In this document: in pieces, positions 1-38,286 of the stretch
How positions within the stretch are numbered: position 1 is the first letter of the stretch
How the letters are laid out: every line of letters begins with the position of its first letter
Source of the DNA: Marinobacterium profundum
Lineage (GTDB): Bacteria > Pseudomonadota > Gammaproteobacteria > Pseudomonadales > Balneatricaceae
Direction of reading: 5' to 3'
Length of the DNA stretch: 48,069 bases
Assembly (NCBI RefSeq): GCF_001528745.1
Contig: NZ_BCNS01000001.1
Location: 1-48,069 of the forward strand
Notes under the pieces: generated by a model
Database searches by the model: none
What the model was told of the DNA's origin: nothing
The model's input: only the letters and a program-made list of their open reading frames with translations
Position numbers and translations under genes: made by a program

Positions 1-930
1 TCAGAGCGCGGCGTCGAGCGCAGGCATGACGTCGAAAAGGTCGCCAACGATCCCATAGTCGGCCACCTGGAATATGGGCGCATCCGGATCCTTGTTGATC
101 GCCACAATCATCTTCGAGTCCTTCATGCCCGCCAGATGCTGGATGGCACCGGAGATCCCCACGGCGATATACAGATCAGGCGCCACCACCTTGCCGGTCT
201 GACCCACCTGATAATCGTTGGGCACAAAGCCGGCGTCGACCGCAGCGCGGGATGCACCCACGGCCGCGCCCAGTTTGGCGGCAACCGCATCCAGCAGGGC
301 AAAGTTCTCGCCGTTGCCCATGCCGCGGCCACCGGAAATCACGATGCGCGCCGTGGCCAGCTCAGGCCCTTCGGACTTGGCTTCGGTACGGCTGACAAAT
401 CGAGCCTGCGCCTGGGCGGACTGAGCATCGATCGCCAGACATTCGGCGCTGCCGCCGGTAACCGCTACTGCTTCGAACTTGGTGCTGCGTACCGTGATCA
501 CCTTGATGGCGTCATGGCTGCGCACGGTGGCCAGGGCGTTACCGGCATAGATCGGACGCTCAAAGGTGTTGGCATCAATCACGCCGCTGATATCGGAGAT
601 CTGCGGTACATCCAGCAGCGCAGCGACGCGGGGCAACAGGTTTTTGGCGAAGGTCGTGGTGGATCCCAGCACATGGGTGTAGCCTTCGGCACAGCGCTGC
701 ACAAGCGGCGCCATATCTTCAGCCAGGGGCTGAGCGAAGAGTTCACAATCGGCGCTCAGCACACGGCGCACACCAGGAATAGCGGCAGCCGCCTGAGTCA
801 CTGCCGCACAGTTGCCCCCCAGAACAAGAATATCGATGTCGCCACCGATCTGCGTGGCGGCGCCCAGAGTATTCAGGGTCGAGGATGCGATGCTGCTGTT
901 GTCGTGATCTGCGATTACAAGAATGGTCAT
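1..930 (-). CDS. etfA: Electron transfer flavoprotein alpha subunit
   Basis: 309 aa, complete, with its stop codon at the first base of the window. EtfA pairs with EtfB to carry electrons from flavoprotein dehydrogenases to ETF:ubiquinone oxidoreductase. The C-terminal FAD-binding domain is clear: a GGRGMG segment near residue 200, then [30 protein letters not shown] and the [11 protein letters not shown] segment typical of the family. It lies 11 bp downstream of etfB and is the third gene after a sarcosine-dehydrogenase-like enzyme. In mitochondria, dimethylglycine and sarcosine dehydrogenases use ETF, so this pair is inferred to be the dedicated electron acceptor for the flavoproteins at 1785-7141. 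The family assignment is very secure; the partnership is inferred from gene order. Confidence 0.96.
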
Positions 931-941
931 GGTGCGTCTCC

Positions 942-1694
942 TTAAGCGATCGCTGCGGCGTGTTTGAGTTTTTCCACCAGTTCGGCTGCGGTAGCCACAA
1001 TGACGCCACCCGCGGCACGTACCGGGGGTTCAACGACCCCGACCAGTTCCAGCCGGGGTGCCAGGTCGACCCCCAGGGACTCGGCCGTGATGCTCTCCAG
1101 CGGCTTTTTCTTGGCCTTCATGATGGCCGGCAGGGAGGCGAAGCGCGGCTCGTTCAGACGCAGGTCAGCGGTAACTATCGCCGGCAGGTTCAGTGCCACT
1201 GTCTCCAGACCACCGTCCACTTCACGGGTGACTTCAATCTGTTCGCCAGTCACGCTCAGGCCCGAGGCAAAGGTACCCTGGGGCCACCCCAGCAGCGCTG
1301 CCAGCATCTGGCCGGTCTGGTTACAGTCATCATCAATGGCCTGCTTGCCCAGTATTACCAGACCTGCGTTCTCTTTCTCAGCCAGTGCCTTGAGCGTTTT
1401 TGCCACCGACAGAGGCTCGGTGGTACCGCCGTGCGGCACCAGGATGGCGCGATCAGCCCCCATTGCGAGCGCCTGGCGCAGGGTGTCCTGGGCCTTTTCC
1501 GGGCCTATGGACACCGCGATGACTTCCGTCGCCACACCTTCTTCCTTCAAGCGGACCGCTGCCTCGACAGCGATCTCGTCAAAGGGGTTGATGGCCATCT
1601 TGACGTTGTCCAGGTCAACGGCCGAGCCATCTGCCCGCACCCGGACCTTGACGTTGTGATCGAGTACGCGCTTAACACCCACAAGAATCTTCAT
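942..1694 (-). CDS. etfB: Electron transfer flavoprotein beta subunit
   Basis: 250 aa from the ATG at 1692-1694. A longer reading to 1766 would add 24 residues that do not look like the family, whereas [19 protein letters not shown] is the normal EtfB beginning. EtfB binds AMP and forms the heterodimer with EtfA. Visible family segments are [16 protein letters not shown] near residue 37 and the [17 protein letters not shown] signature near residue 120. It sits 90 bp downstream of the flavoprotein gene ending at 1785 and directly before etfA, so the three genes probably form one transcript. Confidence 0.96.
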
Positions 1695-1784
1695 GGAGTC
1701 ACCTCTTATAATGTTCAGATCAATACTGTTGCGTTCAGGAAACTGCGCGGCACTTCGGTGCCGCAACTGCTATAGGTCGGCCTG

Positions 1785-4235
1785 TCAGCACTTGATGCGC
1801 TCGTTAGCCGGGTCGTAAAACGGGCGCAGCGATGGTTTGACGACATAACGCTCGCACTCGACTTCGATCTCGAAGGTCACACTGTCGAGCCAGTCCTTGT
1901 TGATGCCGGCATCGTGATGCACATAGCCCATGGCCACGGTGGCACCCAGGGTGTGGCAGAACATGCCTGCCGTGGTATGCCCCACCAGCTTTCCATCAGC
2001 GAAAATAGGTTCTTCGTGGTAGCACAAAGGCTCCGCATCCTCGAACAGGAAGGCAATGAAGCGCTTGCTCAGCAGGCCTTTCTCCTTCTGCGCCAACAAG
2101 GCTTCCTTGCCGATAAAGCCACCGTCCTTGTCGAAGTTGACCGCAAAGCCCAGGCCAGCCTCCAGCGGGGTGTCTTCATCGGTGATGTCGTGACCCCAGT
2201 GACGGTAGCCTTTTTCCATGCGCAGCGAGTTCATGCTGTGGTAGCCGTAGGGGCGAATGCCGAATTCCTTGCCCGCTTCAAACACCGCCTCGTATACACT
2301 GGGCGCATACTCGGTAGGGATATAGAGCTCCCAGCCCAGCTCGCCCACATAGGTAATGCGCGAAGCCCGTACCATGGCGTAGTGCATGTCGATCTCGCGG
2401 GAGGACGCAAACGGGAAAGCTTCGTGGGACAGATCCGCCTGGGTCAGCTTGCTCAGGGTTTCCCGCGAACGCGGCCCCATGACAGTGACAACGGCGTAGG
2501 CCGAGGTCATATCGGTAATCACCAGCTGGGCACCCGACTCACGGTTGCGACGCAGCCAGTCCAGGTCACGGTTCTGACAGGCAACGCCGGAAACCACCAG
2601 GAATTTATCCTCGCCCAGACGCGTCACAGTCACATCGGCTTCGATACCGCCGCGCTCATTGAGCCACTGGGTGTAGACCATGCTCCCTACACGCACATCC
2701 ACATTGTTGGCGCAGATACGGTTGAGGTAGGCCAGCGCATCCTTGCCTTCAAGCTGGTACTTGGAGAAGGAGCTCTGATCGATCACGGCAACGCCGTTGC
2801 GCACGGCCGCGTGTTCCTGGGCATTGCACTCGAACCAGTTCTGTCGACCGAAGGAGTATTCGTACTCCGGCTTCATGTCATCGATGGCGAACCAGTTGGC
2901 ACGCTCCCAGCCGTTCTCGACACCAAAGCAGGCGCCCTGGGCTTTCAGCTGCTCGTGCAGTACGGAGCGGCGCACGCCGCGGGCGGTCTTGAACTGCTTG
3001 AACGGATAGTGCGTTTCGTACAGCAGCCCCAGGGATTCAGTGGTGCGCTCGTACAGATAGGCCTGAGTGCCCTGGAACGGCATGTTGCGACGAATATCCA
3101 CGTCCCACAGATCCCGCGGTGCATGGCCCTTGTGAATCCATTCGGCCAGCATCTTGCCGGCACCACCGGCGGACTGAATGCCCACCGAGTTGAAGCCAGC
3201 AGCCACAAAGTAGTTTTTCAGTTCCGGCGCCTCGCCCAGGTGGTAACGGTCGTCCGGGGTGAAGGACTCCGGGCCGTTAAAGAAGACCTGCAGCCCGGTG
3301 CGCTCCAGTATCGGCAGGCGGTGCATGGCCGATTCGAGGTAGGGTTCCAGGTGATCCAGATCCGGCGGCAGCTCATCGAAGCAGAAACCGTCCGGAATGC
3401 CTTCCATGCCCCAGGGCTTGGCACCGGGCTCAAAGGTACCGATCAGCAGCTTGCCGGCGTCCGGCTTGTAGTAGTTGAAGCCATCCATGTCACGCAGCAC
3501 CGGCAGGCCGGCCTTGAGTTCCGGCATGCTTTCGGTAACAACGTAGTAGTGTTCTGCGGCATGCAAGGGCACATTGACGCCGGCCTTGCGGCCAAACTCC
3601 CGCGCCCACATGCCGGCGCAGTTAACGACATATTCGGCGTCTATATCACCCTTGTCGGTTACCACGCCTGTGGCGCGGCCGTCCCGGGTCTTGATATCCA
3701 GCACCTGGGTATTTTCGAAGATTCGGGCGCCGCCCAGACGCGCGCCCTTGGCCAGCGCCTGGGTGGTATCCACCGGGCTGGTCATGCCATCCATTGGCAG
3801 GTGAATGGCGCCGATCACATCATCGATATTAAGCAGCGGCCAGAGCTCACGCGCCTGCTCCGGATTGATGACATTGCAGGGAAATCCCGCCACCTTGGCC
3901 ATGGAAGCGCCACGCTTGATCTCGGCCAGACGTTCCTTGTTGGTGGCGATGGTCAGGGAGCCATTGCGAACAAAACCGGTCGCCTGGCCCGTTTCGGCCT
4001 CCAAACGCTCATACAGGCTGGCACTGTAGTTCGCCAGCATGGACATGTTGTAGGTCGCACGCAGCGTCGGCACCAGACCCGCCGCATGCCAGGTCGTGCC
4101 GCAGGTCAGCGTCTTGCGCTCCAGCAGCACGACATCGCGCATGCCCAGCTGGGTCAGGTGATAGGCCAGGCTGCAGCCAATCACGCCACCACCTACGATG
4201 ACCACCTGTGCTTGAGTCGGAAATGAGTTGTTCAT
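1785..4235 (-). CDS. Sarcosine/dimethylglycine dehydrogenase-like flavoprotein (FAD oxidase + GcvT)
   Basis: 816 aa from the ATG at 4233-4235, preceded by AGAGAG; the upstream extension to 4286 is not family-like. An N-terminal DAO-type FAD domain (VVIVGGGVIGCSLAYHL, about 11-27) is followed by TTWHAAG, in which His50 matches the covalent FAD-attachment His of mammalian DMGDH/SARDH. After about residue 430 comes a GcvT-type folate domain (GVRRSVLHEQL, GWERANWFA, then the aminomethyltransferase fold and its C-terminal barrel). The enzyme should oxidise an N-methyl group and pass it to tetrahydrofolate as 5,10-methylene-THF, handing electrons to the EtfAB encoded next. By eye it resembles sarcosine dehydrogenase/PDPR more than dimethylglycine dehydrogenase (CGTTWHAAGL, PLLNIDDVIG, GPESFTPDDRYHLGEAPEL). 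Substrate preference is inferred. Confidence 0.88.
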   Translation of the reverse strand: MNNSFPTQAQVVIVGGGVIGCSLAYHLTQLGMRDVVLLERKTLTCGTTWHAAGLVPTLRATYNMSMLANYSASLYERLEAETGQATGFVRNGSLTIATNKERLAEIKRGASMAKVAGFPCNVINPEQARELWPLLNIDDVIGAIHLPMDGMTSPVDTTQALAKGARLGGARIFENTQVLDIKTRDGRATGVVTDKGDIDAEYVVNCAGMWAREFGRKAGVNVPLHAAEHYYVVTESMPELKAGLPVLRDMDGFNYYKPDAGKLLIGTFEPGAKPWGMEGIPDGFCFDELPPDLDHLEPYLESAMHRLPILERTGLQVFFNGPESFTPDDRYHLGEAPELKNYFVAAGFNSVGIQSAGGAGKMLAEWIHKGHAPRDLWDVDIRRNMPFQGTQAYLYERTTESLGLLYETHYPFKQFKTARGVRRSVLHEQLKAQGACFGVENGWERANWFAIDDMKPEYEYSFGRQNWFECNAQEHAAVRNGVAVIDQSSFSKYQLEGKDALAYLNRICANNVDVRVGSMVYTQWLNERGGIEADVTVTRLGEDKFLVVSGVACQNRDLDWLRRNRESGAQLVITDMTSAYAVVTVMGPRSRETLSKLTQADLSHEAFPFASSREIDMHYAMVRASRITYVGELGWELYIPTEYAPSVYEAVFEAGKEFGIRPYGYHSMNSLRMEKGYRHWGHDITDEDTPLEAGLGFAVNFDKDGGFIGKEALLAQKEKGLLSKRFIAFLFEDAEPLCYHEEPIFADGKLVGHTTAGMFCHTLGATVAMGYVHHDAGINKDWLDSVTFEIEVECERYVVKPSLRPFYDPANERIKC

Positions 4236-4378
4236 CGATACTCTCTTTTTCTGAATGACCCGCGCCCCTGAAAGGCGAAGTGACACTGACTGTTCGTTTG
4301 GGTGGCATTGACCGCAGCAATCGGAACCATTCCGTAACCACTGTCAGGAAAGAGCACCCTTCCCATCAATCATCTTTT

Positions 4379-17057: not shown

Positions 17058-17133
17058 TTGCCAACCAGTCCTGATATAAAAGTTTCATCGAAACAGGGCT
17101 CGATTATGCCACACCGAGCTTGCGCGACGAATA

Positions 17134-17145
17134 GTAACCGGTTAC
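17134..17145. promoter_or_regulatory. LacI-type operator, copy 1
   Basis: GTAACCGGTTAC, a perfect 12-bp palindrome with the central CG typical of LacI/GalR-family operators. It is 76 bp upstream of the lacI-type start and 80 bp upstream of the 17226 start. Confidence 0.82.
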
Positions 17146-17158
17146 ATTCGAAACAAGT

Positions 17159-17170
17159 GTAACCGGTTAC
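17159..17170. promoter_or_regulatory. LacI-type operator, copy 2
   Basis: A second exact GTAACCGGTTAC, extended to TGTAACCGGTTACA (17158-17171). Its centre is 25 bp from that of copy 1, a spacing that would allow paired dimers in the divergent promoter region. A possible extra half-site, GTTACA, follows at 17175-17180. Confidence 0.85.
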
Positions 17171-17225
17171 ACACGTTACATTCTTGTTGAAAGTCCCGCT
17201 ATTGATCGACAAGGAAATCAGGACA

Positions 17226-19571
17226 ATGACTGTTTTAGAAACCCCTGTATGGTCCCCCACCCGCGGCGGCCTGGGATCCCGAAACGCCCTGTACCCCGGA
17301 TTCCCGGCCCCCTCAGGCAACCAGGCGAGCCGCCTAACACTTGGCGACAGCATTTGCCTCAGGTTACAGGCCGGCGACCTGGTGGCGCTGCGCCTGGAAC
17401 ATTGCAGCAGCCCGCTACTCATCAGCGGTCTGGATATGAACAACAACGCGTCCCTGCCCCAGTTTGCACACTCACTGGAGCCTGCAGAGTCCTCCTGCGG
17501 ACAGTTCGACAGCCGTGAACTGGAAGATCAGCTCAACGCCATCGACATGCCCCTGCGGGCACTGCGCTTCGTTACGCTCAACCCCGCCGATGCCGGCCAG
17601 GCAACAGGACCACTGACCTTCAGAAGCGAACAGGATGTAATGCTGGTTCTGGCCTTGCCAGAAACACCCCACAGCATGGTGGATGGCAGCCGTCACGGCT
17701 TCATTGATATCGAGATTGTCGGTGACGCCGCCGCTGAGTTGCCGCTGCCCCCAGTGCTGGGCAGGGTACGGGAAGAGTTTCGTGTTGAACGCGCCAGCGC
17801 CCGGGCCTATACCGTCAAGAAGGGCGAATACATTCAGGTGATTGATGTACAAGGACGCCAGTGTTCCGACTTCATGGCCATGGACAGCCAGGCGCTCGCA
17901 CAGGGTATTGAACGCCATATAGATTCCACCGTGACCCGCACGCTGGCCGCAGGCGCCTACCCGGCCCCCGGCCTGCACGACAAGTTCTTCGATCAGGACA
18001 TGAACCCCCTGCTGGCGGTTGTGCAGGATACGGTTGGCCGCCACGATACCTTTGCCCTGGCCTGTACCGAATATGGCTATGCCGAGCGCGGGTATCCCGG
18101 CCACCTCAACTGCTCCGACAATATCAGTGCCGTCTACAGGGAGTACGGCATAGCACCGCGCAAGGCCTGGCCTGCCATCAACTTCTTTTTCAATTCCTGG
18201 ATCAACGCACACGAGAACTCGCTCAGGTCCGATGAGGCCTGGTCCAGGCCCGGGGACTATGTCGTGATGCGAGCCCTGACCGACCTGACCTGCGTCACCA
18301 CAGCCTGCCCCGACGATATCGATCCGATCAATGGCTGGAACCCGACCGATATTCATGTGCGTATCTATCACCCCGATGCCCCTATCCGGCGCGCCGTTGC
18401 CTACCGATCCACCGCAGAGGCCAAACCCTACATGAGCCGAGAAACTCCCTTTCATCCCCGCACCAGCCAGTTGACCCGACGCTTTCATTCGGCGCGCAAT
18501 TACTGGATTCCGCAGGTGTTTGATGCCACCGGCGCCATCGAAGAATACTGGGCCTGTCGCAACGCCGTGACCATTCAGGACATGTCGAACCTGCGCAAGC
18601 TGGATATCTGTGGCCCGGATGCCGAGCGACTGCTGCAACTGGCCCTGACACGGGATGCCAGCCGTCTGGCGGTCAACCGCGGCTTCTATGCCCTGGTATG
18701 CTCCGCCCAGGGAACCGTCGAGGATGACGGTACCCTGTTTCGCCTGGCCCCCGACCTGTTTCGCTGGTGCTGCGGCTCGGACGAGTCCGCCCGCATACTG
18801 GAAGCCCTTGCCCGCGAGCACGACCTCAAGGTCTGGATACGCGACCTGACACTCAAGCTGTGCAACATTGCGGTGCAGGGGCCGAAAAGCCGCGACCTGC
18901 TGCGCAGTGTTGTATTTACGCAACCGGGCCAGCCTGAATTTGAAAACATCAAATGGTTTGGCTGTGCCATCGCCAGGCTAAACAATCGCGACGGCCTTCC
19001 CTTCATGCTGACCCGCAGCGGCTTCACCGGCGAGCTGGGTTACGAGCTGTTTTGCGACCAGCGCGATGCCGTTGCACTCTGGGATGCGATCATGCGCGCC
19101 GGCGAACCCCACGCGGTTACGCCCATGGGCGGCGAGGCCCTGGAAATGCTGCGCATAGAGGCTGGCCTGATGATCAATGGTGCTGAATTCGGTGATGGCT
19201 CGGACCCGGACGAAGCCGGTCTTGGCTTTGCGGTGGATATGCGCAACGAGGTATTTACCGGCCGCGCCGCCATTGTCCGCAACCAGCAGGCTCCGCGCAA
19301 AGTCCTGGTTGGCCTGGAACTGGACGGCCAGGAGATTCCGCTGCACGGCGAGCACCTTTATATCGACCGCCAGCCGGTGGGTGTCATCACCAGCGCGACC
19401 CGTTCCCCGGAGCTTGGCAAAGTTATTGCTTTAGCTAGGGTCGCAGTCGAACTTGGCACGCCCGGCCAGATACTTGAAGTTGGCCGCCTGGATGGCCACA
19501 TGAAACGGCAACGGGCAACCGTCTGCGCACTACCCTTTATAGATCCCTCCCGAACCAAAGCTCGCGCCTGA
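17226..19571 (+). CDS. DUF1989-GcvT fusion protein, candidate demethylase
   Basis: 781 aa from the ATG at 17226 (AGGA just upstream); an in-frame TTG at 17184 falls close to the operators and is less likely. Residues about 175-385 are a DUF1989 (urea-carboxylase-associated) domain: DVQGRQCSDF (207-216), DTVGRHDTFALAC (268-280), NCSDN (295-299), PAINFFFNSW and NGWNPTDIHVRI. DUF1989 relatives include subunits of carboxyguanidine deiminase. Residues about 425-775 are a GcvT/aminomethyltransferase fold (EYWACRNAVTIQDMSNLRKLDICGPDA, GTVEDDGTLFRL, TRSGFTGELGYELF, MGGEALEMLRIEAGL). Residues 40-165 may be a diverged further DUF1989-like half. GcvT relatives such as DmdA move methyl groups to THF. With the betaine-type importer next to it and a LacI regulator opposite, it probably degrades the imported solute. 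The reaction is unknown. Confidence 0.85.
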   Translation: MTVLETPVWSPTRGGLGSRNALYPGFPAPSGNQASRLTLGDSICLRLQAGDLVALRLEHCSSPLLISGLDMNNNASLPQFAHSLEPAESSCGQFDSRELEDQLNAIDMPLRALRFVTLNPADAGQATGPLTFRSEQDVMLVLALPETPHSMVDGSRHGFIDIEIVGDAAAELPLPPVLGRVREEFRVERASARAYTVKKGEYIQVIDVQGRQCSDFMAMDSQALAQGIERHIDSTVTRTLAAGAYPAPGLHDKFFDQDMNPLLAVVQDTVGRHDTFALACTEYGYAERGYPGHLNCSDNISAVYREYGIAPRKAWPAINFFFNSWINAHENSLRSDEAWSRPGDYVVMRALTDLTCVTTACPDDIDPINGWNPTDIHVRIYHPDAPIRRAVAYRSTAEAKPYMSRETPFHPRTSQLTRRFHSARNYWIPQVFDATGAIEEYWACRNAVTIQDMSNLRKLDICGPDAERLLQLALTRDASRLAVNRGFYALVCSAQGTVEDDGTLFRLAPDLFRWCCGSDESARILEALAREHDLKVWIRDLTLKLCNIAVQGPKSRDLLRSVVFTQPGQPEFENIKWFGCAIARLNNRDGLPFMLTRSGFTGELGYELFCDQRDAVALWDAIMRAGEPHAVTPMGGEALEMLRIEAGLMINGAEFGDGSDPDEAGLGFAVDMRNEVFTGRAAIVRNQQAPRKVLVGLELDGQEIPLHGEHLYIDRQPVGVITSATRSPELGKVIALARVAVELGTPGQILEVGRLDGHMKRQRATVCALPFIDPSRTKARA

Positions 19572-19609
19572 AAGCATTCACATGAACTGCATAAGAAGAG
19601 GTGTTTCTG

Positions 19610-20578
19610 ATGAACACGATCAAACCCCTGTTACTCGCCAGCCTGCTCAGCGCCGGCCTCATGGCGCCTGCCGCCCAGGCCAATGAAACGATCCGGGTGG
19701 GTGAACCCAGCTGGCCCGGCGCCAGAATCATTGCCAACGTCATTAAAGTCGTGATCACCGACAAGCTGGGGGTAGAAGCCGAGCTGGTGCCAGGTGCCAA
19801 CGCGGCTCTCTACGCCGGTATGGACAAAGGCCGCGGCGACGTGGACGTACACCCCGATGTCTGGCTACCGAACCAGCAGAGCTTCACCGACAAATACGTC
19901 AACGAAAACGGCACCGTCGCCCTCAGCGAAGGCTCCTACGAAGGCGTCAGTGGTTTCTGCGTTCCGACCTATATGAAGACCGAGCACGGCATCAACTCCA
20001 TCTACGATCTGGCAACTCCCAAGGCCCAGAGCCTGTTCGACAGTAATAATGACGGCAAGGGCGAGATCTGGGTCGGTGCGCCGGGTTGGGGCTCAACCAA
20101 GATCAATCAGGTTAAGGTGCGGGACTATGGTATCAGCGACTTCCTCGAAGCCACCACCGAAGATGAAGCCGTGTTTTACGCCAAGATTTCCACGGCAATT
20201 CAAAAAAATCAGGGCGCCGTTTTCTACTGTTATAACCCCCACTTCGTGCATGCGCTCTACGACGTAAGCATGTTGGAAGAACCTGAATTCAAGGCGGAAA
20301 ACTATGTCATCGTGCAGCCGGATGAAGATGCCCAGTGGTTTGAAAAATCCAAAATAACCACCGGTGATCAGGTCAAAACCGTACGTGTCGCCTATTCAAA
20401 CTCCCTGCTGCAACGCAGTCCTGAAGTCGCCGCCCTGCTGAAGCGAATCGACCTGGAAAACTCGGCCGTTAGCGCCATGACCTACGCCATCGTGATTGAA
20501 AACCGCGACCCGGCGGAAGTCGCCCAGGAGTGGGTCGACAACCATGGCGACATCGTTGATCAATGGCTGGGACTATAA
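19610..20578 (+). CDS. Glycine-betaine-type periplasmic binding protein
   Basis: 322 aa from the ATG at 19610, nine bases after AAGAGG; a GTG at 19601 is the alternative. A signal peptide is visible (MNTIKPLLLASLLSAGLMAPAAQA, cut before NETIRVGEPSW). The mature protein is of the OpuAC/ProX type: GEPSWPGARIIANVIKVVI, GRGDVDVHPDVWLPNQ, GAPGWGSTK and a C-terminal QEWVDNHGDIVDQW. Such proteins hold quaternary ammonium groups in a cage of aromatic residues; tryptophans in PSWPG, DVWLPN and PGWGS are candidates. It follows the DUF1989-GcvT gene by 38 bp and precedes its ATPase and permease. Ligand unknown; not necessarily betaine. Confidence 0.9.
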   Translation: MNTIKPLLLASLLSAGLMAPAAQANETIRVGEPSWPGARIIANVIKVVITDKLGVEAELVPGANAALYAGMDKGRGDVDVHPDVWLPNQQSFTDKYVNENGTVALSEGSYEGVSGFCVPTYMKTEHGINSIYDLATPKAQSLFDSNNDGKGEIWVGAPGWGSTKINQVKVRDYGISDFLEATTEDEAVFYAKISTAIQKNQGAVFYCYNPHFVHALYDVSMLEEPEFKAENYVIVQPDEDAQWFEKSKITTGDQVKTVRVAYSNSLLQRSPEVAALLKRIDLENSAVSAMTYAIVIENRDPAEVAQEWVDNHGDIVDQWLGL

Positions 20579-20644: not shown

Positions 20645-21712
20645 GTGAATTTACCGAACAATCCGGCCACGGCGATCAAGGTCGAAAGTGTCTGGAAGGT
20701 CTTTGGCACTCGCTGGGAAGAAGCGCTGAACGCCATTCATCAGGAAAATCTGGGCAAGCAGGAAGTACTGGAGCGTTTTGACTGTGTCGTTGGCGTTGCC
20801 AATGCCAGCTTCGAAGTATTTGAAGGCGAAATTTTCTGCATCATGGGCCTGTCGGGCAGTGGCAAATCAACTCTGGTACGGCATATCAATCGCCTGCTAG
20901 AGCCCTCTTCGGGCCATATCAGCGTACACGGCGACGATGTCGTATCCCTGGACGAGCAGGCACTGCGTGAGTTTCGTAACAGGCGCGTGGCAATGGTGTT
21001 TCAGAACTTCGGTCTGATGCCCCACCGCACGGTGCGCGACAATGTCGCCATGCCGCTGGAAATCCGCGACATGCCCAAGAGCGAGCGCTGGCGCGAGGCC
21101 GATCGCGTCCTCAAGCTGGTTGATCTACAGGGCTGGGAAGACAAGTACGCCCACGAACTGTCCGGCGGCATGCAGCAACGCGTCGGCCTGGCCCGCGCCA
21201 TTGCCGCCAACCCGGATATCCTGCTGATGGACGAACCCTTCAGCGCTCTGGATCCGCTGATCCGTCGCCAGCTGCAGGATCAGTTTATGGACCTGTCCCG
21301 GCTGATGAAAAAAACCACGCTGTTCATCACCCACGACCTGGATGAGGCCATTCGCATCGGCCACCGCATTGCCATCATGAAGGACGGCGAAATCATCCAG
21401 ATCGGCACCCCGGACGAAATCGTCACCCAGCCGGCCGACGACTATGTAGCGGACTTCGTAGCCAGCATCTCGCGCCTCAAGTTCGTGCATGCCAAATCAC
21501 TCATGACGCCGATCGAGACCCATATCGCCCACGCTGGAGAGCTGCCTGCCGAGGCGCCCAGTGTGTCGCCGGACGCCAGTCTGGACGAACTGATTTCGGT
21601 GGCGATCCACTGGGACGGCCCCATTGCCGTGGTCGATCAGGGCCAGCGGGTTGGCGCGGTCGACCGCGTCAGCATCATGCAAGGTATTCAGGGCCACGGG
21701 GGTGCCAAATGA
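20645..21712 (+). CDS. Glycine-betaine-type ABC importer ATPase
   Basis: 355 aa with a GTG start at 20645 behind GGGAGG (20630-20635). Walker A GLSGSGKST (about 68-76), FQNFGLMPHRTVRDNVAMPLE, signature LSGGMQQRVGLARA, Walker B ILLMDEPFSALDP and LFITHDLDEAIRIGHR place it with ProV/OpuAA. Like ProV it has an N-terminal extension before the core and a C-terminal tail resembling a single CBS module (about 300-350, SLDELISVAIHWDGPIAVVDQGQRVGAVD), which in OpuA-type transporters takes part in osmotic or ligand sensing. The stop overlaps the permease start as ATGA (21709-21712), indicating translational coupling. Confidence 0.92.
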   Translation: MNLPNNPATAIKVESVWKVFGTRWEEALNAIHQENLGKQEVLERFDCVVGVANASFEVFEGEIFCIMGLSGSGKSTLVRHINRLLEPSSGHISVHGDDVVSLDEQALREFRNRRVAMVFQNFGLMPHRTVRDNVAMPLEIRDMPKSERWREADRVLKLVDLQGWEDKYAHELSGGMQQRVGLARAIAANPDILLMDEPFSALDPLIRRQLQDQFMDLSRLMKKTTLFITHDLDEAIRIGHRIAIMKDGEIIQIGTPDEIVTQPADDYVADFVASISRLKFVHAKSLMTPIETHIAHAGELPAEAPSVSPDASLDELISVAIHWDGPIAVVDQGQRVGAVDRVSIMQGIQGHGGAK

Positions 21713-23217
21713 ACGCAGCTCAGGAAGTTCAGGACTATGACCGCGCAGTCGACAGGCTTGTCGATGAGTTCTCGGTTTCAAACTCGGCTTACTACCGAGC
21801 GCGCTTCAGCAAAATCAGTGCATCCAGCCGCTTTACACTGACCTTCAACCTTGCCAGTGCCCTGCTCGGCCCCGTGTGGTTTGCCGCCCGCGGCCTGTGG
21901 AACTGGTTCCTGGTGTTTGTTCTGCTCGAAGCCTTCGCCTTTATTCAAATAGCTCTGGGTCTGTTCAGTGACCTGGGCGCCGAACAGAAACTGCGCGCAG
22001 GCCGCATAGCCGGCACGCTGGAGGAACGCCGGGCCCAGCTCGAGGCCGCCATTGCCAGCCAGGCTGACAACGTTGAAGCCTTGCAGCGGCTGGTCGGCTC
22101 GCTGGAATCCGCCGTCGCCGGCGCCATGCAACAGGCGCAGTCCATGGAAAGCCAGCGCCTGGCCCTGCTGATGTTCGGTATCGGCCTGATGCTGATCGTC
22201 AAACTGCTCCAGGGTGCGATGGGTAACTGGGCGCTGGAACGCCAGTTTACCTACTGGCGCTCGAATCGCTCAATTGCTCGTGGTTTTTCGACGTTTCGCG
22301 CTACTACGGCCCTCATTCTGGTAGCCGTCATCTACGGGCTGGCGGCGGCGCAATTTGCGTTCCCGACCAGCTGGAGCCTGCTGCAGACCTTCCCGGCCAA
22401 TGACAATATCCGCATCGATGTCAGCGATGGCCTCAAGGGATGGTTTGATTACGCCACCATCGCCGGGGCCGGTTTCTTCAACAATGTCACCGACGCCGTT
22501 CGCGTACTGCTCGACAGCCTGGAGACCGTTTTCGTCGGCACACCCTGGCCGGTCATCATGCTGTTTATCGCCCTGCTCGCCTGGCAGTGTGCCGGCCCCC
22601 GTGTCGCCATTCTGGCTGTTGCCGGCCTCATGTATCTGGGCTTGCTGGGATTCTGGGACAAGGCCATGGCCACGGTATCCCTGCTCGGTGCCGCCGCCTG
22701 CGTCAGTATTTCGCTGGGGATTCCCATCGGTATTCTCTGCGCCCGCAAACCCAGGGTCTTTGCCTTTGTCAGGCCCGTGCTGGACTTCATGCAGACCATG
22801 CCGTCCTTCGTCTACCTGATTCCCATTATCGCCTTCTTTGGCACTGGCAAACCGGCCGCCATTCTAGCGACCCTGGTCTTCGGCAGCCCGCCAGTTATCC
22901 GTATGACAGTGCTGGGGCTGCAAGGCGTGCCCGAGGCCGTGCGTGAAGCAGCACGCTCATTCGGCGCCTCTCCGGGATACCTGCTGTTCAAGGTCGACCT
23001 GCCCCTGGCGTCCCCTACCATCATGGCCGGCGTGAACCAGACCATCATGCTGAGCCTTGCAATGGTCGTTATCGCCTCACTGATTGGCGCCAAGGGATTG
23101 GGAGAAGATGTCTTGGAAGCCCTTCAATATGCTTCCACCGGAGAAGGAATACTGGCAGGCCTGGCGATTCTAGTGTGCTCAATGATTCTGGACCGGGTTA
23201 TTCAGGGCCGACGCTAA
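21709..23217 (+). CDS. Betaine-type ABC permease with long N-terminal extension
   Basis: 502 aa. The C-terminal half (about 270-500) is a ProW/OpuAB permease core; its EAA loop is EAVREAARSFGASPGYLLFKVDLPLASPTIMAGVNQT and the end is VVIASLIGAKGLGEDVLEALQ. The N-terminal 210 residues are unusual: a soluble start (YYRARFSKI), a membrane pair (about 47-85) recalling DUF2628-type segments, a charged, probably coiled-coil stretch (about 90-150, EQKLRAGRIAGTLEERRAQLEAAIASQADNVEALQRLVGSLESAV) and two more hydrophobic segments (about 150-170 and 200-218). ProW itself has only a short N-terminal tail before its core. The extension may sense osmolarity or bind a partner (inference). Last gene of the operon. 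Confidence 0.88.
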   Translation: MNAAQEVQDYDRAVDRLVDEFSVSNSAYYRARFSKISASSRFTLTFNLASALLGPVWFAARGLWNWFLVFVLLEAFAFIQIALGLFSDLGAEQKLRAGRIAGTLEERRAQLEAAIASQADNVEALQRLVGSLESAVAGAMQQAQSMESQRLALLMFGIGLMLIVKLLQGAMGNWALERQFTYWRSNRSIARGFSTFRATTALILVAVIYGLAAAQFAFPTSWSLLQTFPANDNIRIDVSDGLKGWFDYATIAGAGFFNNVTDAVRVLLDSLETVFVGTPWPVIMLFIALLAWQCAGPRVAILAVAGLMYLGLLGFWDKAMATVSLLGAAACVSISLGIPIGILCARKPRVFAFVRPVLDFMQTMPSFVYLIPIIAFFGTGKPAAILATLVFGSPPVIRMTVLGLQGVPEAVREAARSFGASPGYLLFKVDLPLASPTIMAGVNQTIMLSLAMVVIASLIGAKGLGEDVLEALQYASTGEGILAGLAILVCSMILDRVIQGRR

Positions 23218-23415: not shown

Positions 23416-23498
23416 GATACTGCGTGACGCGCCTCGGACAAACCCGCCCTGCTACGCCAAGAACCCGCAGGACCGGCCTGATACCAGCCCCTGACGCC

Positions 23499-24218
23499 TT
23501 ATGGAAGTTCGACGTTGTGATAAACCTGCTGCACGTCATCCAGATCGTTCAGCATGGTCAGAAACCTCTCGAACAGGGCGACATCGTCACCGGTAACCGT
23601 GGTAAAGGCGTGGGGGATAAACTGGATTTCATCCACATCGAAGTCAAGCTCGCCACAGCGATCCAGCAAGGCGGTTTTGGCCTTGAAATAATCGGTATTG
23701 GGGGCGAATACCGTGATTTTGCCGTCTTCATTCTCGATGTCTGTTACATCGACGTCAGCTTCCATCAGGGCTTCGAGCACCGCCTCTTCATCGTCGTAGG
23801 CGAATACAAAGATGGCCGCGTGATCAAACATATGGCTAACACTGCCCGGCGTGCCGATCTTGCTCTTGGTCTTGGTAAAGGCCTGGCGCACATCACCGAA
23901 GGTACGGTTGGGGTTGTCGGTGAGGCAGTCAATAATGGCCATGCTGCCGCCGGGGCCATAGCCTTCGTAACGCGCCGCCGCGTAGTCCTCGCCCGCGCCA
24001 CCTTTCGCCTTTTCGAGCGCCTTGTCGATAACATGACTTGGCACCTGGTCCTTCTTGGCACGCTCAATCAAGCCTCGCAAGGTCAGATTGCCGGCAGGGT
24101 CAGTCCCTCCCGACTTGGCGGAGACATAGATCTCACGACCATAGCGGCTATAAACCTTGGCCTTCATGTCAGACGTCTTGGCCATCGACTCTTTGCGGTT
24201 CTGATAGGCTCTGCCCAT
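23499..24218 (-). CDS. YebC/PmpR-family protein, YeeN-like branch
   Basis: 239 aa. YebC-family proteins act as transcription regulators and, as shown more recently for some members, relieve ribosome stalling. The order is preserved: [47 protein letters not shown], then [39 protein letters not shown], and a C-terminal [10 protein letters not shown]...[10 protein letters not shown]. The start [14 protein letters not shown] and the [17 protein letters not shown] stretch resemble E. coli YeeN rather than YebC, which begins MAGHSKWANI and sits next to ruvC. It stands alone here, with no ruvABC nearby. Confidence 0.9.
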
Positions 24219-24398
24219 GCGGCTAATGCTCCGTAATGATCACAAAAACAGCGATTCTACTGGCAACCGAGGTATCTGAACAACGCAGAAATGCGAAAGA
24301 TGGCGAACGTCAGTACGCGAAACCCGCCGCCGACGCCCGTAGCAAAAGCCCCGCCAGCGCAACTCCGCAGCGGCTTCAATCAGGGCTTCAAGCACTGG

Positions 24399-25217: not shown

Positions 25218-25793
25218 CTACTTCTCGCTATCACTGGTGACACGGTTGAGAATGTCCGGCACGAAACGCTCACTGAAGCCGGCAATGAAACCCCAGACGA
25301 TTGCCTTGGCATGATCCTGGGCATCCTTGGGACTCCAGGATGTGAGAAAATCCTGAAATTCGAAGCACCCGGATCCCTCCGGTTTGCAGGAGAAAGCGGG
25401 AAAAAACGGTCCCACAACAATTTCCGAGGCAAATAGCACATACAAAATAGTGGATGAGATCGCGCCCACCAGCGCCGGAATCGACGAATAGGCGATCAGG
25501 TAGGTACTGGTGCCATGCAGAAATACCGAATAGCTGGTGATTGGAAATATATCCCGGGTGGAATAAATTCGATTCAGCGCACTGACAAAACTCCCCAGCA
25601 CCCCTGCCAGTATTACCACCGGCAGAATGGAGAGCAGCTTATCCCCCGTCCAGTCAGAATACAGCAGCGCACCACCCGCGAAGATTGTAATAATTAGTGT
25701 CGCAAAAAAAAGCCACAAAACGATAGAGCGGTGCACGCCAATTTCCGCATCTGATCGCCCCGCCCCCGCCTCCTGTTTTGATTCACGCTCCAT
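25218..25793 (-). CDS. Uncharacterised inner-membrane protein
   Basis: 191 aa from the ATG at 25791-25793, placed by a strong AAGGAGATGTA just upstream; the reading to 25973 adds 60 residues of no visible merit. Three to four hydrophobic segments: about 25-45 (IVLWLFFATLIITIFAGGALL), 53-75 (LLSILPVVILAGVLGSFVSAL) and 92-130 (a long stretch, perhaps two helices). A polar loop with two Cys (FSCKPEGSGCFEF) follows, then AKAIVWGFIAGFSERFVPDILNRV at the C-terminus. The GFIAGFSERFVPD end is one I associate with a family of small bacterial membrane proteins of unknown role. Not part of an obvious operon. Confidence 0.78.
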   Translation of the reverse strand: MERESKQEAGAGRSDAEIGVHRSIVLWLFFATLIITIFAGGALLYSDWTGDKLLSILPVVILAGVLGSFVSALNRIYSTRDIFPITSYSVFLHGTSTYLIAYSSIPALVGAISSTILYVLFASEIVVGPFFPAFSCKPEGSGCFEFQDFLTSWSPKDAQDHAKAIVWGFIAGFSERFVPDILNRVTSDSEK

Positions 25794-26149
25794 TACATCT
25801 CCTTGCGGGTATCTGTTTCTATTACGGGCGCTTGCAGGCCAATATGCTCCCCCCCTGATACAACAGCATGGTTCAGCCCAGGCCAGGGCGCCACCCGGAT
25901 TCAGCAGGGTCGGATTCGACTTGCCAAGAAAAGCACCTTTAGCCCTCGCGGAAAGCCCGGATGGCTGATTCATAAATCAGTCATGGATAGAGCAAAAATT
26001 CACCATTGAGTCGCCCATACGACTGAACTCAGATGTATAAATCCCGCTCCCCATTCATCCACTTTAAAAAAGCCTCCTTCAGCGTCCTCTGAAAACAGGG
26101 CATGCAGATCGGCACCGCGAAAAGGGACAGCTCCAGCCATGCTGAAGCC
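25794..26149. other. Intergenic region
   Basis: 356 bp between the membrane-protein start and the end of the LysR gene. No supported gene, only a short GAGTCG/CGACT inverted repeat near 26008-26024. The plus-strand readings here are antisense or short. Confidence 0.55.
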
Positions 26150-31954: not shown

Positions 31955-32821
31955 TTAGTCTGAAAAGACCACGGTGCGCTGACCCAGCACAAAGACACGT
32001 TTTTCGATGTGATAGCGGATTGCCCTGGACAGGGTTACACGCTCGATGTCCTGACCCTTTTCCACCAAATCTTCCGGATACTGGGCATGATCCACCGGCT
32101 GAATGCCCTGGGTAATGATCGGTCCCTCATCCAGATCGTTGTTCACGTAATGTGCCGTAGCACCCACTAGTTTGACGCCCTTGGCCCAGGCTTGGTGATA
32201 GGGCTTGGCGCCCTTGAAGCCCGGCAGCAGCGAGTGGTGAATATTGATAGCCCAGCCATCCAGCTTGCGACACAGCTCCGGTGACAGCACTTGCATGTAG
32301 CGCGCCAGTACCACCAGCTCGGTATCGTATTGCTGAATCAGTTCCCATACCTGAGCTTCCTGCTCCGCCTTGGTATCCGGCGTAATGGGCAGGTGGTGGT
32401 ATGGAATACCGTGCCACTGGGCCAGCGGTTCCAGATCCGGATGATTGGAGATAATCACCGGGATTTCAATATTCAGCTGGCCGGTACGAAAGCGGTACAG
32501 CAAGTCGTTCAGGCAGTGATCGTATTTGGAGACCAGAATCGCCACGCGCGGCTTGTGTTCCGGCGTGCGTAGCTGCCATTGCATATCAAAGCCCGCAGCC
32601 CGCTCGGCAAAGGCGCCGTTGAAGGCCTCTTCGCTGAAATTGTCATCCTCCGGACGAAACTCGACGCGGATGCAGAAACGATTCAGCTCACGATCGTCAA
32701 AGGACTGCATTTCCAGCACATAGTTGCGGGTTTCGGCCATGAACCGGGTGACCACATCAACGGTACCCAGACGGCTCGGACAGTGTGCCGTGAAGATCCA
32801 CGGTTTCAGTTTTGCTGTCAT
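31955..32821 (-). CDS. purU: Formyltetrahydrofolate deformylase
   Basis: 288 aa. Hydrolyses 10-formyl-THF to THF and formate. An N-terminal ACT domain (about 8-90, FTAHCPSRLGTVDVVTRFMAE) precedes a formyltransferase fold (RVAILVSKYDHCLNDLLYRFRTGQL; INIHHSLLPGFKGAKPYHQAWAKGVKLVGATAHYVNNDLDEGPIITQ), which carries the His and Asp of the active site. It follows soxG by 100 bp, the same order as in Pseudomonas sox loci. Its role would be to regenerate free THF as sarcosine demethylation loads the folate pool with one-carbon units. Confidence 0.95.
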   Translation of the reverse strand: MTAKLKPWIFTAHCPSRLGTVDVVTRFMAETRNYVLEMQSFDDRELNRFCIRVEFRPEDDNFSEEAFNGAFAERAAGFDMQWQLRTPEHKPRVAILVSKYDHCLNDLLYRFRTGQLNIEIPVIISNHPDLEPLAQWHGIPYHHLPITPDTKAEQEAQVWELIQQYDTELVVLARYMQVLSPELCRKLDGWAINIHHSLLPGFKGAKPYHQAWAKGVKLVGATAHYVNNDLDEGPIITQGIQPVDHAQYPEDLVEKGQDIERVTLSRAIRYHIEKRVFVLGQRTVVFSD

Positions 32822-32921: not shown

Positions 32922-33605
32922 CTAGTCTTTAACGACCAGACCAAACTCGGCACAGGCATCCTGCAGCCAGAGCCACAAGTAATCAGCAAAACTGCGTCGA
33001 ATCACCAGTTCCCAGTTTTGCTCACCGGTGCGACGAATCACAGCCTGGCTCTTGGCAAAAACGGTGGTAACAACCTTGCCCACCGGGAAGTTGCGGTCGT
33101 GCACGTCGTAGGGCGTGGACTTTTTCAGTACCGCGCGGGCATCAGGGCCGGACAGTTCCAGTACGGTCTGGCCACCGCTGACATTGACGATGGCAACATG
33201 GCCGCTCATCGCCGCGCGCAGACGGTTTTCCAGCTCGAAGGCTTCCTTGCCTGGCATGATCACCAGCCACTCGTCGGGTGCGATCCAGCGCACCGACAGA
33301 GCGCCGTCCTCGGCCGCCGTCAGCGGCTGAGTTGGCAGATCAAACCCCAGCACAGCCCTGGCACCGGCCAGGAAACCTGCATTGTCCTGATTGCCACGGA
33401 TCACCAGGTGACCCAGCAGCTTGTGTTCCTGCAGCGTAACGCCACCGGTTTTTGGTCCCTGCTTTGCCACTGTCGCGAGGTCCGCATGATAGAGCGGCGA
33501 CTCGGCACGGATGTCGGCGCTGGGCAGCTGATCCATCAGGGCGACAGTTGCGACAGGGGCCGCCTCAACTGCGGCCGGTTTGGTTGGTGCAATGATGTCA
33601 GACAT
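32922..33605 (-). CDS. soxG: Sarcosine oxidase gamma subunit
   Basis: 227 aa. Smallest-but-one subunit of heterotetrameric sarcosine oxidase, a GcvT-like fold without known catalytic residues. Marks: RAVLGFDLPTQPL, DGALSVRWIAPDEWLVIMPGKEAFELENRLRAA, VSGGQTVLELSGPDARAVLKKSTPYDVHDRNFPVGKVVTTVFAKSQAVIRR. Its start overlaps the soxA stop by 8 bp, indicating coupled translation. The N-terminal 35 residues are Ala/Pro/Val-rich and poorly conserved in appearance. Confidence 0.93.
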   Translation of the reverse strand: MSDIIAPTKPAAVEAAPVATVALMDQLPSADIRAESPLYHADLATVAKQGPKTGGVTLQEHKLLGHLVIRGNQDNAGFLAGARAVLGFDLPTQPLTAAEDGALSVRWIAPDEWLVIMPGKEAFELENRLRAAMSGHVAIVNVSGGQTVLELSGPDARAVLKKSTPYDVHDRNFPVGKVVTTVFAKSQAVIRRTGEQNWELVIRRSFADYLWLWLQDACAEFGLVVKD

Positions 33606-36600
33606 TTTGACGCTCCCCCTTGGGATCCAGGAACACCGGGTTGCAGATTTCGGCTTCGATCACGCGGCCATCGGCCAGCGGATAGAACACGGTTTCGCCC
33701 ATGCGGTTGTGACCGTTACGAACAAAGCCCATGGCCACGGAATGACCGAGGTTGGCACTGTAGTAGCTCGAGGTCACATGACCCAGCATGGTCATGGGAA
33801 TCGGCTGTTTGGGGTCATTGACCGCCTGGGCGCCTTCCGGAATCACTGTCTTGGGCTCGCGGGTTTTCAGGCCCACAAGATGCTTGCGATCGGTACGCAC
33901 GCAATCTTCACGGGCCATGCCGCGCTTGCCGATGTAGCTGAACGGCTTGGCGTTGGACACACACCAGCTCATGCCAAGATCGATCGGGGTCACGGAACCA
34001 TCGGTATCCTGACCTGCAATAATGAAGCCCTTCTCTGCACGCAGCACGTGCATGCTTTCAGTACCGTAAGGCGTCAGGTTGAACTTGGCGCCGTGCTCGA
34101 ACAGTTTTTCCCAAACGTGCAGACCGTAGTTGGCCTGAACGTTGATTTCATAGGACAACTCACCGGTGAAGGAAATGCGGAATACCCGCGCCGGCACGCC
34201 GGCCACATCACCCTGGCGCAAGTCCATGAACTTGAAGGTATCACGGTCCAGATCGATATCGGTCAGCTCGCCCAGCAGTTTGCGGGCGTTAGGGCCAGAA
34301 ATCGTCATGGTGGCCCAGTGATCGGTCACGCTGCTGAAGTAGACTTCCAGTTCCGGCCACTCGGTCTGATGATAGAGTTCCAGCCATTCCAGTACGCGCG
34401 GCGCACCGCCGGTCGTGGTGGTCATCAGGAAGTGATTATCGGCCAGGCAAGAGGTTACGCCATCGTCGAAGACCATGCCGTCTTCACCACACATCAGGCC
34501 GTAGCGGCACTTGCCGACCGGTAATTTGGCCCAGGCGTTGGTGTAGACACGGGCCAGGAATTCACGCGCATCCTTGCCCTGGATATCGATCTTGCCCAAG
34601 GTCGAGGCGTCGAGGATACCCACGCTTTCGCGGGTTGCCTTGCACTCGCGATCCAGTGCCTGCTGCATGGTTTCGCCGCCCTGGGGGAAGTACCAGGGAC
34701 GCTTCCACTGGCCCACGTCCTCGAACAGCGCGCCGTTGGCGAGATGCCACTTGTGCATGGCACTGAAGCGGTTGACGTCGAACAGTGCACCGCAGTCACG
34801 ACCGGCCACGGCACCAAAGGTCACCGGAGTATAGTTGGGACGGAAAATGGTGGTGCCGGTCTGGGGAATGGTCTGGTTCAGCGACTTGGCAGCCACCGCC
34901 ATGCCGTTGATGTTGCCCAGTTTGCCCTGATCGGTACCAAAGCCCATGGCGGTGTAGCGCTTGACGTGCTCGATGGACTCAAAGCCCTCGCGCGTCGCCA
35001 GCTCAATACCGGCCGCGGTAACGTCGTTCTGGTAATCCACGAACTGTTTCGGCGCGCGCGACGTCGGTTTGGTGTGCGGAATATGGTATAGCGCCATGGC
35101 TTTGCCTTCGCGCACTTCCTCTGCCAGCGGCAGGGAAATACCCTTGGCGGCATCGCTAAAGCCCGCGGCTTCACAGGCAGCAGCGCCGGCACGGGCGCCC
35201 TCTTCCAGTACGGCCTTGAGACTGTAAGTACCATTGATGCCACCAGCACAGTGCTGTTTCTGCACGGTTTTGCCGGGTACAAAGCCAATAACATCGTCAC
35301 GCCATTCTGGCCGGCTGCCGGTATGGCAGGACAGGTGAATAACGGGGCTCCAGCCACCGGAACTGGCAACAGTATCGCAGCCCAGACGCTCAACAGCTCC
35401 CGCCAGTGCATCGCCAGCCGCATTCAGCGGTGCTATGGACACGCCAGTCACACGCTTGCTGCCCTGTACTTCAATCACGCCGGAACCGGCAATGATATTC
35501 AGGCCACGGGATTTGGCGGCGTCGATGCGGTCGCCCTTGGGGTTCTGACGCGTATCAACAATAGCCACCACCTTGCGGCCGGCATCGTGCCAGTCCAGCG
35601 CCGTCTGGTAGGCATGGTCGTTGGTGGTCATGAGCACCAGCTCTTTACCTGGCACTACCGCGTAACGGTTGATATAGGTCGATACGCCTGCAGCCTGCAT
35701 GCAGCCCGGCACGTCATTGTTGCCAAATACCAGCGGACGCTCGTGGGCGCCGGTGGCCAGCACAACCTGGTTGGCACGTACACGATGCATGCGCTGACGC
35801 ACCTGACCTGCCGGTGCCTTGTCGCCCAGATGATCAGTGCAACGCTCGTGAATAGTGAGGAAGTTATGGTCGTGGTAACCGTTCACAGTGGAACGGGGCA
35901 GCAACAGTACTTCGGGGTGCTGTTTCAGCTCTTCAACCACAGTGGCAACCCACTCAGCGGCCGGACGGCCATTAAGGGTTTCACGGGTATCCAGCAGGCT
36001 GCCGCCAAATTCACTCTGCTCGTCCGCCAGAATCACGCGGGCACCGCTGCGTGCCGCAACCAGCGCCGCCGCAAGTCCTGCAGGACCGGCACCGACGATC
36101 ATCAGATCGCAGTGATGGTTTACCTTGTCGTACATATCCGGATCACGTTCGGTGGACGAACGTCCCAGGCCTGCGGCCTTGCGGATAAACTTCTCGTAGG
36201 TTTCCCACAGCGACGGCGGGTACATGAAGGTCTTGTAGTAGAAACCCGGCGGCATCATGCGCCCGCCAACCTTGCCGACATAACCCATCAGGTCGAGGTC
36301 AGCATTGGGCCAGCCATTGGTGGCACTGCACACCAGGCCGTTGAACAGGCTCTGCTGGGTAGCACGCACGTTCGGTACCTGGGTAGCTTCAGTAGCGCCG
36401 ACCTGCAGGACCGCGTTAGGCTCTTCTGCACCGGCGGCGATGATGCCGCGTGGACGGCTGTACTTGAAGCTGCGTCCGACGATATCCACGCCATTGGCCA
36501 ACAGGGCCGAGGCGACTGTATCACCTTCAAAACCGGGGTATTGACGGCCGTTATAGCTGAAGTTCAGCGCTTTGGCACGGTCAACGCGTCCACCGGAGGC

Positions 36601-38189: not shown

Positions 38190-38286
38190 AGTGCCAGCTC
38201 CCCCTAGACTCCCGGTCAGACCGGGATAATTCATGCATGTGTGACGCTAAAGCCGGGCACCCGCAGGTGCCCGCGACGAATCAGGC

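Follow-up and report, generated by a model that had tools for sequence, protein, structure and literature searches.

The window analyzed here, a 48,069-nucleotide stretch of a Marinobacterium profundum genome, contains a gene for a DUF1989-GcvT fusion protein belonging to a sister clade (clade B) of the TMAO demethylase Tdm, with a different importer, regulator and genomic setting; another substrate is still likely. From sequence comparisons, we put the probability at about one half that the operon forms a self-contained unit for the uptake and demethylation of a methylated-ammonium solute other than TMAO. Another substrate is argued by the separate importer and switch, by the co-existence of clade B with clade A (the Tdm clade) in some genomes, and by the lack of Tmm in the genomes that contain clade B only. 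A broader proposal, which we consider slightly short of even odds, is that clade B represents a second enzyme with the architecture of Tdm, namely an oxygen-independent metal demethylase that would act on an osmolyte (betaine-type or amine-oxide) of marine hosts and algae, and that the enzyme, its dedicated importer and LacI with one conserved operator would have moved together, as a cassette, between Alpha- and Gammaproteobacteria. The relevant features are listed in Table 1.

Table 1. Features of the window, with positions, strands and the basis of each assignment.
Feature	Position	Strand	Basis
ETF alpha (1-930) and ETF beta (942-1766)	1..1766	-	domain search
FAD (DAO) + GcvT dehydrogenase-like (dimethylglycine/sarcosine-dehydrogenase-like), possible downstream partner	1785..4286	-	domains, homologue search
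Divergent LacI-family regulator, 341 aa	16032..17057	-	profile match
LacI-type palindromic operator copy 1, AGTAACCGGTTACA, 1 mismatch	17133..17146	.	palindrome search, conservation
LacI-type palindromic operator copy 2, TGTAACCGGTTACA, exact, 25 bp from copy 1	17158..17171	.	palindrome search, conservation
Clade-B Tdm-like demethylase (putative), DUF1989 + GCV_T + GCV_T_C, 781 aa	17226..19571	+	Pfam, NCBIfam, structure-sequence match, tree
Periplasmic binding protein, OpuAC domain, cage W38 W88 W163 Y209 Y211	19601..20578	+	Pfam, alignment, model
ABC importer ATPase, ProV/ChoV-like	20645..21712	+	profile match
ABC importer permease, ProW/ChoW-like	21709..23217	+	profile matches
Formyl-transferase-domain gene, PurU-like	31955-32821	-	one-carbon context
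soxA	33598-36621	-	above NCBIfam cut-off
soxB	36936-38234	-	above NCBIfam cut-off

The longest open start of the fusion gene is TTG 17184, which gives 795 residues. ATG 17226 gives 781 residues and is preceded by AAGGAAATCAGGACA; judged by eye, it is the likelier start. The DUF1989-GcvT fusion of the original prediction was confirmed by Pfam, which places DUF1989 at residues 201-368 (8.9e-41), GCV_T at residues 424-683 (4.2e-57) and GCV_T_C at residues 706-787 (2.9e-17) of the 795-residue form, all three well above the Pfam cut-offs. The quoted motifs (DVQGRQCSDF, DTVGRHDT and NCSDN) are present. No FAD (DAO) domain, as found before GcvT in dimethylglycine/sarcosine dehydrogenases, was detected in the protein by Pfam. 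The predicted structure has a mean pLDDT of 82.8 and a pTM of 0.79, and residues ~30-165 are beta-rich in the model, at moderate confidence. A fold search of the PDB with this model returned dimethylglycine oxidase, GcvT and DUF1989 folds among the matches listed, while 9q59 is not among the best 50.

The solved structure that matches best is that of the M. silvestris TMAO demethylase (9q59), with an alignment covering residues 49-794 (E 3.9e-192); blastp gives 47.8% identity over 609 residues. The NCBIfam equivalog model for TMAO demethylases, NF053776, matches nearly end-to-end with 1034.1 bits, just 6% below its cut-off of 1100. In the available text of its published description, M. silvestris Tdm consists of an N-terminal DUF1989-like domain, DUF1989 and Gcv_T, and converts TMAO into dimethylamine and formaldehyde (PMC12560246). 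The fusion is therefore real, but its architecture is already known, being that of the characterized and structurally solved Tdm (9q59/9q5l/9q5a, 793 aa). Prior characterization had been set beforehand as grounds for rejecting novelty and, given the solved 793-residue structure and published activity, the claim of a new architecture therefore falls. The full-length match to the Tdm structures supports the other part of that claim, that the protein is probably a demethylase. Accordingly, the window protein could be a divergent TMAO demethylase, with imported TMAO being converted into dimethylamine, to be excreted, and formaldehyde, to be used for energy or one-carbon units. This alternative, which we regard as rather unlikely, draws on the common architecture and metal residues, as well as on the NF053776 score near the cut-off.

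Six residues, D198, C263, H276, C279, C343 and D346, are named as Zn/Fe ligands or their partners in Tdm in the available part of that report (PMC12560246). All six are invariant in the 83 rows of our family alignment, which fits a working metal site. Since 3oru, a protein with DUF1989 only, has like residues at these positions, as read from the alignment, they are no proof of demethylation. Other positions are clade-specific. In the DUF1989 half, Y267 is replaced by Gly (66/66 clade-B rows), A350 by Ile (65/66) and G297 by Ala (65/66); in the GcvT half, A472 is replaced by Leu and E442 by Asp, each in 66/66 rows.

The expectation of a complete folate domain held in part: GCV_T and GCV_T_C were both found, but Y101 and R223, described as THF contacts of E. 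coli GcvT in the text available (PMC12560246), correspond to F519 and G650 in the window protein (795-residue numbering). The equivalent residues of M. silvestris Tdm are F487 and L618, and THF use by that enzyme is considered probably vestigial in the same text (PMC12560246). With the two contacts lost as in Tdm, THF probably receives the one-carbon unit through a weak or partial transfer.

A contig scan identified 66 loci with relatives, and more were added from whole-genome searches. Of the 104 matching ORFs, 20 were removed as duplicates of a gene already included and 3 (L047, L054 and L063) as broken or partial. The 81 that remained, together with the window and M. silvestris proteins, make up the 83 rows of the alignment and tree. 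The family falls into two clades with a support of 100 in the 83-row tree: 17 rows, M. silvestris Tdm among them, form clade A, and the other 66, with the window protein, form clade B. A rooted GcvT tree of 40 of the 83 family rows and 5 outgroups keeps clade B together at 100/95; clade A has just 71/96 and is possibly no true clade. The root of this tree is not firm, since it joins long branches; the DUF1989 tree is unrooted. The window protein groups apart from the characterized Tdm in both the 83-row and the rooted GcvT trees.

Clade-B hosts are Alpha- and Gammaproteobacteria, plus one betaproteobacterial record (Ideonella, L020), according to the classes to which we presume these organisms belong. 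The NF053776 cut-off separates the clades imperfectly: one clade-B gene, from Shinella (L019/L084), is above it at 1131.7, and several clade-A rows (L107, L108, L109 and L111) are below. When Pseudomonadota genomes were sampled evenly, the family was found at an E-value of 1e-150 or better in 27 of 398, 24 of them above the cut-off, with at most two candidates scored per genome, so that double carriers may be missed. By bit score, 23 of the 24 loci newly fetched from this sample lie nearer to M. silvestris Tdm, and the remaining one (L183) is nearer to the window protein. Clade B is the rarer of the two. The clade-B gene nearest to that of the window, at 76% over its C-terminal portion, is found in Aliamphritea spongicola (L063, 7 to 12 kb). 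It is broken into three ORFs there and the permease into two, and the dehydrogenase of that genome is likewise split, reflecting either decay or assembly indels.

The relationship of clade B to the TMA-TMAO pathway was explored in 25 genomes, 24 picked from clade-B loci plus the M. profundum genome itself, all chosen as holders of clade B. A clade-A gene accompanies clade B in ten of these (G006, G007, G011, G012, G013 (Roseovarius nubinhibens), G014, G016, G021, G022 and G024). Similarity searches with a query from a clade-A neighborhood, typed as Tmm at 809 bits (cut-off 675), detected Tmm in all ten two-clade genomes and in none of the 15 genomes with clade B only, M. profundum included. 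Both the retention of a clade-A Tdm in ten genomes and this absence of Tmm argue against TMAO as the clade-B substrate. A glutamine-synthetase-family protein that we take for GmaS, with only sub-cut-off glutamine-synthetase matches in NCBIfam, follows the same pattern (7/10 versus 0/15). The DmmA family (PF11927) was dropped as a marker of the TMAO pathway, as it does not separate the groups: it occurs in 17 of the 25 genomes, eight of the ten with two clades and nine of the 15 with clade B only, and not in M. profundum. Neither the DmmA nor the Mgs candidates have a match in NCBIfam, and the labels GmaS, DmmA, Mgs and HTH-cupin in these neighborhoods are presumed orthologies, assigned partly by eye. 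TmoX homologues lie near clade A in just five of 16 regions, four at 80-84% identity and one at 47%. For the TMAO alternative, SAR11 is reported, in the available portions of two papers, to use TMAO without dmmDABC (PMC8918994, PMC5520151).

The operon was expected to encode a betaine-type importer, and the fusion gene is indeed followed by genes for an OpuAC binding protein, an ATPase resembling ProV/ChoV and a permease resembling ProW. Two ORFs beside the importer (23424-24236 and 25218-25973; 270 and 251 aa) have no Pfam match. Among the 66 clade-B loci, many of which are on short contigs, ProV at 50% identity or more is found in 35; the ProW and ProX relatives form clusters with members in 34 and 31 loci, respectively. 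TRAP importers occur near the clade-B gene in L018, L031, L043, L047 and L059; in the three Roseobacter loci among these (L031, L043 and L059), the TRAP importer lies directly 5' of the gene in place of the ABC importer and LacI, and in two Granulosicoccaceae loci a TRAP importer is on the divergent side.

The window binding protein has a weak sequence likeness to TmoX (E 2.3e-9), and clade-B binding proteins are ~21-24% identical to it. Thirty-three clade-B binding proteins were aligned with six TmoX sequences: Trp55, Trp102 and Trp177 of TmoX are kept in 33/33, Phe220 is Tyr in 33/33 and Trp222 is Trp or Tyr. Such an aromatic cage points to a methylated cation as ligand. Phe106 is replaced by Gln or Arg in 33/33. 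Glu131 is also replaced in all 33 (Gln in 21, Thr in 6, Ser in 4 and Ala in 2), in a column that rests on ~22% identity. As stated in the accessible text of the TmoX study, Glu131 hydrogen-bonds the TMAO oxygen, and the matching E114A mutation in Pelagibacter TmoX abolished TMAO binding (PMC8918994). The missing glutamate thus argues against TMAO, whereas the model of the window binding protein (pLDDT 89.8), whose best structural match is TmoX-TMAO (E 4.9e-19, TM 0.61), would favor it; ProX, ChoX, OpuAC and DmpX follow closely in the same search. The solute of the clade-B system is probably not TMAO, and a zwitterionic compound (betaine-type or amine-oxide) appears likelier.

The LacI-family regulator, which had been described as a repressor facing the fusion gene, was indeed found upstream and divergent. 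Both palindromes listed in Table 1 lie between lacI and the fusion start; 0.05 would be expected in the whole window at up to two mismatches. LacI relatives (cluster, at least 38% identity) are present in 30 of the 66 clade-B loci. We searched 62 of the 66 loci for TGTAACCGGTTACA with up to two mismatches, in a region reaching from 350 bp upstream of the called clade-B gene start to 60 bp downstream of it. The operator occurs in 28 of the 30 loci with a LacI relative compared to two of the 32 without, and controls gave 2/2652 for random windows of the same loci and 2/3100 for shuffles. At up to one mismatch, 23 sites were found in 15 genomes. The clade-B gene accounts for 16, and the remaining seven are within chance (20 in the reversed-pattern control), so the visible regulon is the clade-B operon alone. 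Two other sites in the M. profundum genome (L158 and L159), considered as regulon members, led nowhere. This control differs from that of tdm in Ruegeria pomeroyi, whose activator is the AraC-type TmaR according to the available text (PMC13390433), a further point against TMAO. Among the labels of 16 clade-A regions, none is a LacI of the clade-B kind.

The one-carbon context of the window was said to include two sarcosine-oxidizing systems. Both soxA/soxB and FAD+GcvT genes beside ETF genes are present, but the claim holds at the family level only. Two FAD+GcvT dehydrogenase-like genes adjoin ETF genes in the window, and a homologue of the 1785-4286 protein, at 50% identity or more, is found in 25/25 clade-B genomes. 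In Marinomonas sargassi (L003), the genes for ETFBA, a PurU-like protein, an 80%-identical dehydrogenase, FolD, HTH-cupin, the clade-B enzyme and the importer stand in one row. This row and the 25/25 homologues make it plausible that the product enters dimethylglycine/sarcosine oxidation. A point against this reading is that DMGDH-like genes adjoin clade B in just eight of the 66 loci. The 1785-4286 protein is 80-81% identical in four other clade-B genomes (G002, G003, G004 and G017), and the clade-B enzyme itself is much lower, at 55-66%.

Demethylation of glycine betaine itself, with dimethylglycine passing to the neighboring dehydrogenases, is an improbable variant. Its merits are the betaine-type importer, the 25/25 homologues just mentioned and the DMGDH-like neighbors in the window and in eight of the 66 loci. 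Glycine betaine is not an N-oxide, and the redox-neutral chemistry of Tdm would therefore not apply unchanged. Glycine betaine is also less likely because M. profundum already has a glycine betaine monooxygenase (GbcA) above cut-off (L136 on C85, 726.9 versus 670 bits), as does M. pollencensis (L134, 683.6). M. profundum has two further, sub-cut-off relatives of this enzyme (L130 on C123 and L147 on C83).

Other neighbors of the clade-B gene were considered as substrate clues and set aside, as they have no common theme across loci. They include an amidase of the PRK07486 kind, below cut-off (L015, L055 and L064), accompanied by RidA-like and DUF1028 genes in L064; a choline-sulfatase (L015); glutamate-synthase-like genes (L001); a cis-3-hydroxyproline-dehydratase-like gene, below cut-off (L055); a dioxygenase of the PhyH type (in L018 from Pfam and in L047 from similarity); and the TRAP importers noted above. 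The literature searched provided no gene set for comparison with homarine. The amidases, together with the carboxyguanidine deiminase subunits cited among DUF1989 relatives in the original prediction, would suit hydrolysis or deimination of a creatine-like (guanidino or amide) compound by the DUF1989 half, the GcvT half then taking a methyl group. We consider this very improbable, and the creatine idea found no support: the urea-amidolyase-associated models TIGR03424 and TIGR03425 score far below their cut-offs (86.9 versus 284.7 and 49.5 versus 205.95 bits), no guanidine gene is among the typed neighbors, Tdm is the nearest characterized full-length relative, and the binding-protein cage suits a methylated cation. 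A stand-alone pair of DUF1989-type genes elsewhere in the M. profundum genome (G000:C122:39263-40311; L073 and L074), with weak matches to the Tdm model, is possibly the urea-amidolyase-associated pair.

Beyond the computed domains, metal residues, clade, importer, operator and Tmm absence, we infer demethylation by the clade-B enzyme, a substrate other than TMAO and a fate for its product. In the reading we prefer, that of a methylated-ammonium solute other than TMAO, the ABC importer would take up a small solute of this kind via its aromatic-cage binding protein, and the enzyme would remove a methyl group at the Zn/Fe site of the DUF1989 domain. The one-carbon unit would be released at the formaldehyde level, with the GcvT domain transferring part of it to tetrahydrofolate, as has been proposed for Tdm. 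The demethylated product may then enter the dimethylglycine/sarcosine-type oxidation present in these genomes. The LacI repressor, acting on its two palindromic operators, would keep the operon off until the solute or product appears.

In the sea, Tdm is used as a marker gene of TMAO utilization. Compared over full-length or near-full-length frames, clade-B proteins reach ~480-625 bits against the M. silvestris enzyme, and surveys of tdm with loose cut-offs would therefore probably count them as Tdm; BLASTP at e-50 has been used for such counts, according to the accessible text of one survey (PMC5520151). If clade B does have another substrate, part of these counts would be wrong, and a new route for a methylated marine solute would become testable, with enzyme, importer, regulator and operator named. 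We found no description of a second clade of the Tdm architecture in the literature searched, which covered part of the papers and journals, with subscription journals mostly outside, and is therefore no proof that clade B is undescribed.

In comparison to known systems, the window protein resembles M. silvestris Tdm (9q59/9q5l/9q5a) in domain order, length and the six named metal-site residues, and both are without the two THF contacts of GcvT. It differs in its separate clade, ~48% identity over 609 aligned residues and score below the equivalog cut-off, as well as in its LacI control and another importer; in the 25 clade-B genomes, Tmm is found solely alongside a clade-A gene. The GcvT fold is common to the window protein, the DMSP demethylase DmdA and dimethylglycine oxidase/dehydrogenase, but the protein scores 140.4 bits against a cut-off of 410 with the DmdA model (NCBIfam PRK12486) and, unlike the latter enzymes, is without an FAD domain. 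The urea-amidolyase-associated proteins UAAP1 and UAAP2 share the DUF1989 fold and residues, but not the GcvT half. The clade-B binding protein has its fold family and aromatic cage in common with TmoX (4xz6) of the marine TMAO importer TmoXWV, from which clade-B binding proteins differ by an identity of ~22% and by the replacement of Glu131 and Phe106 in 33/33.
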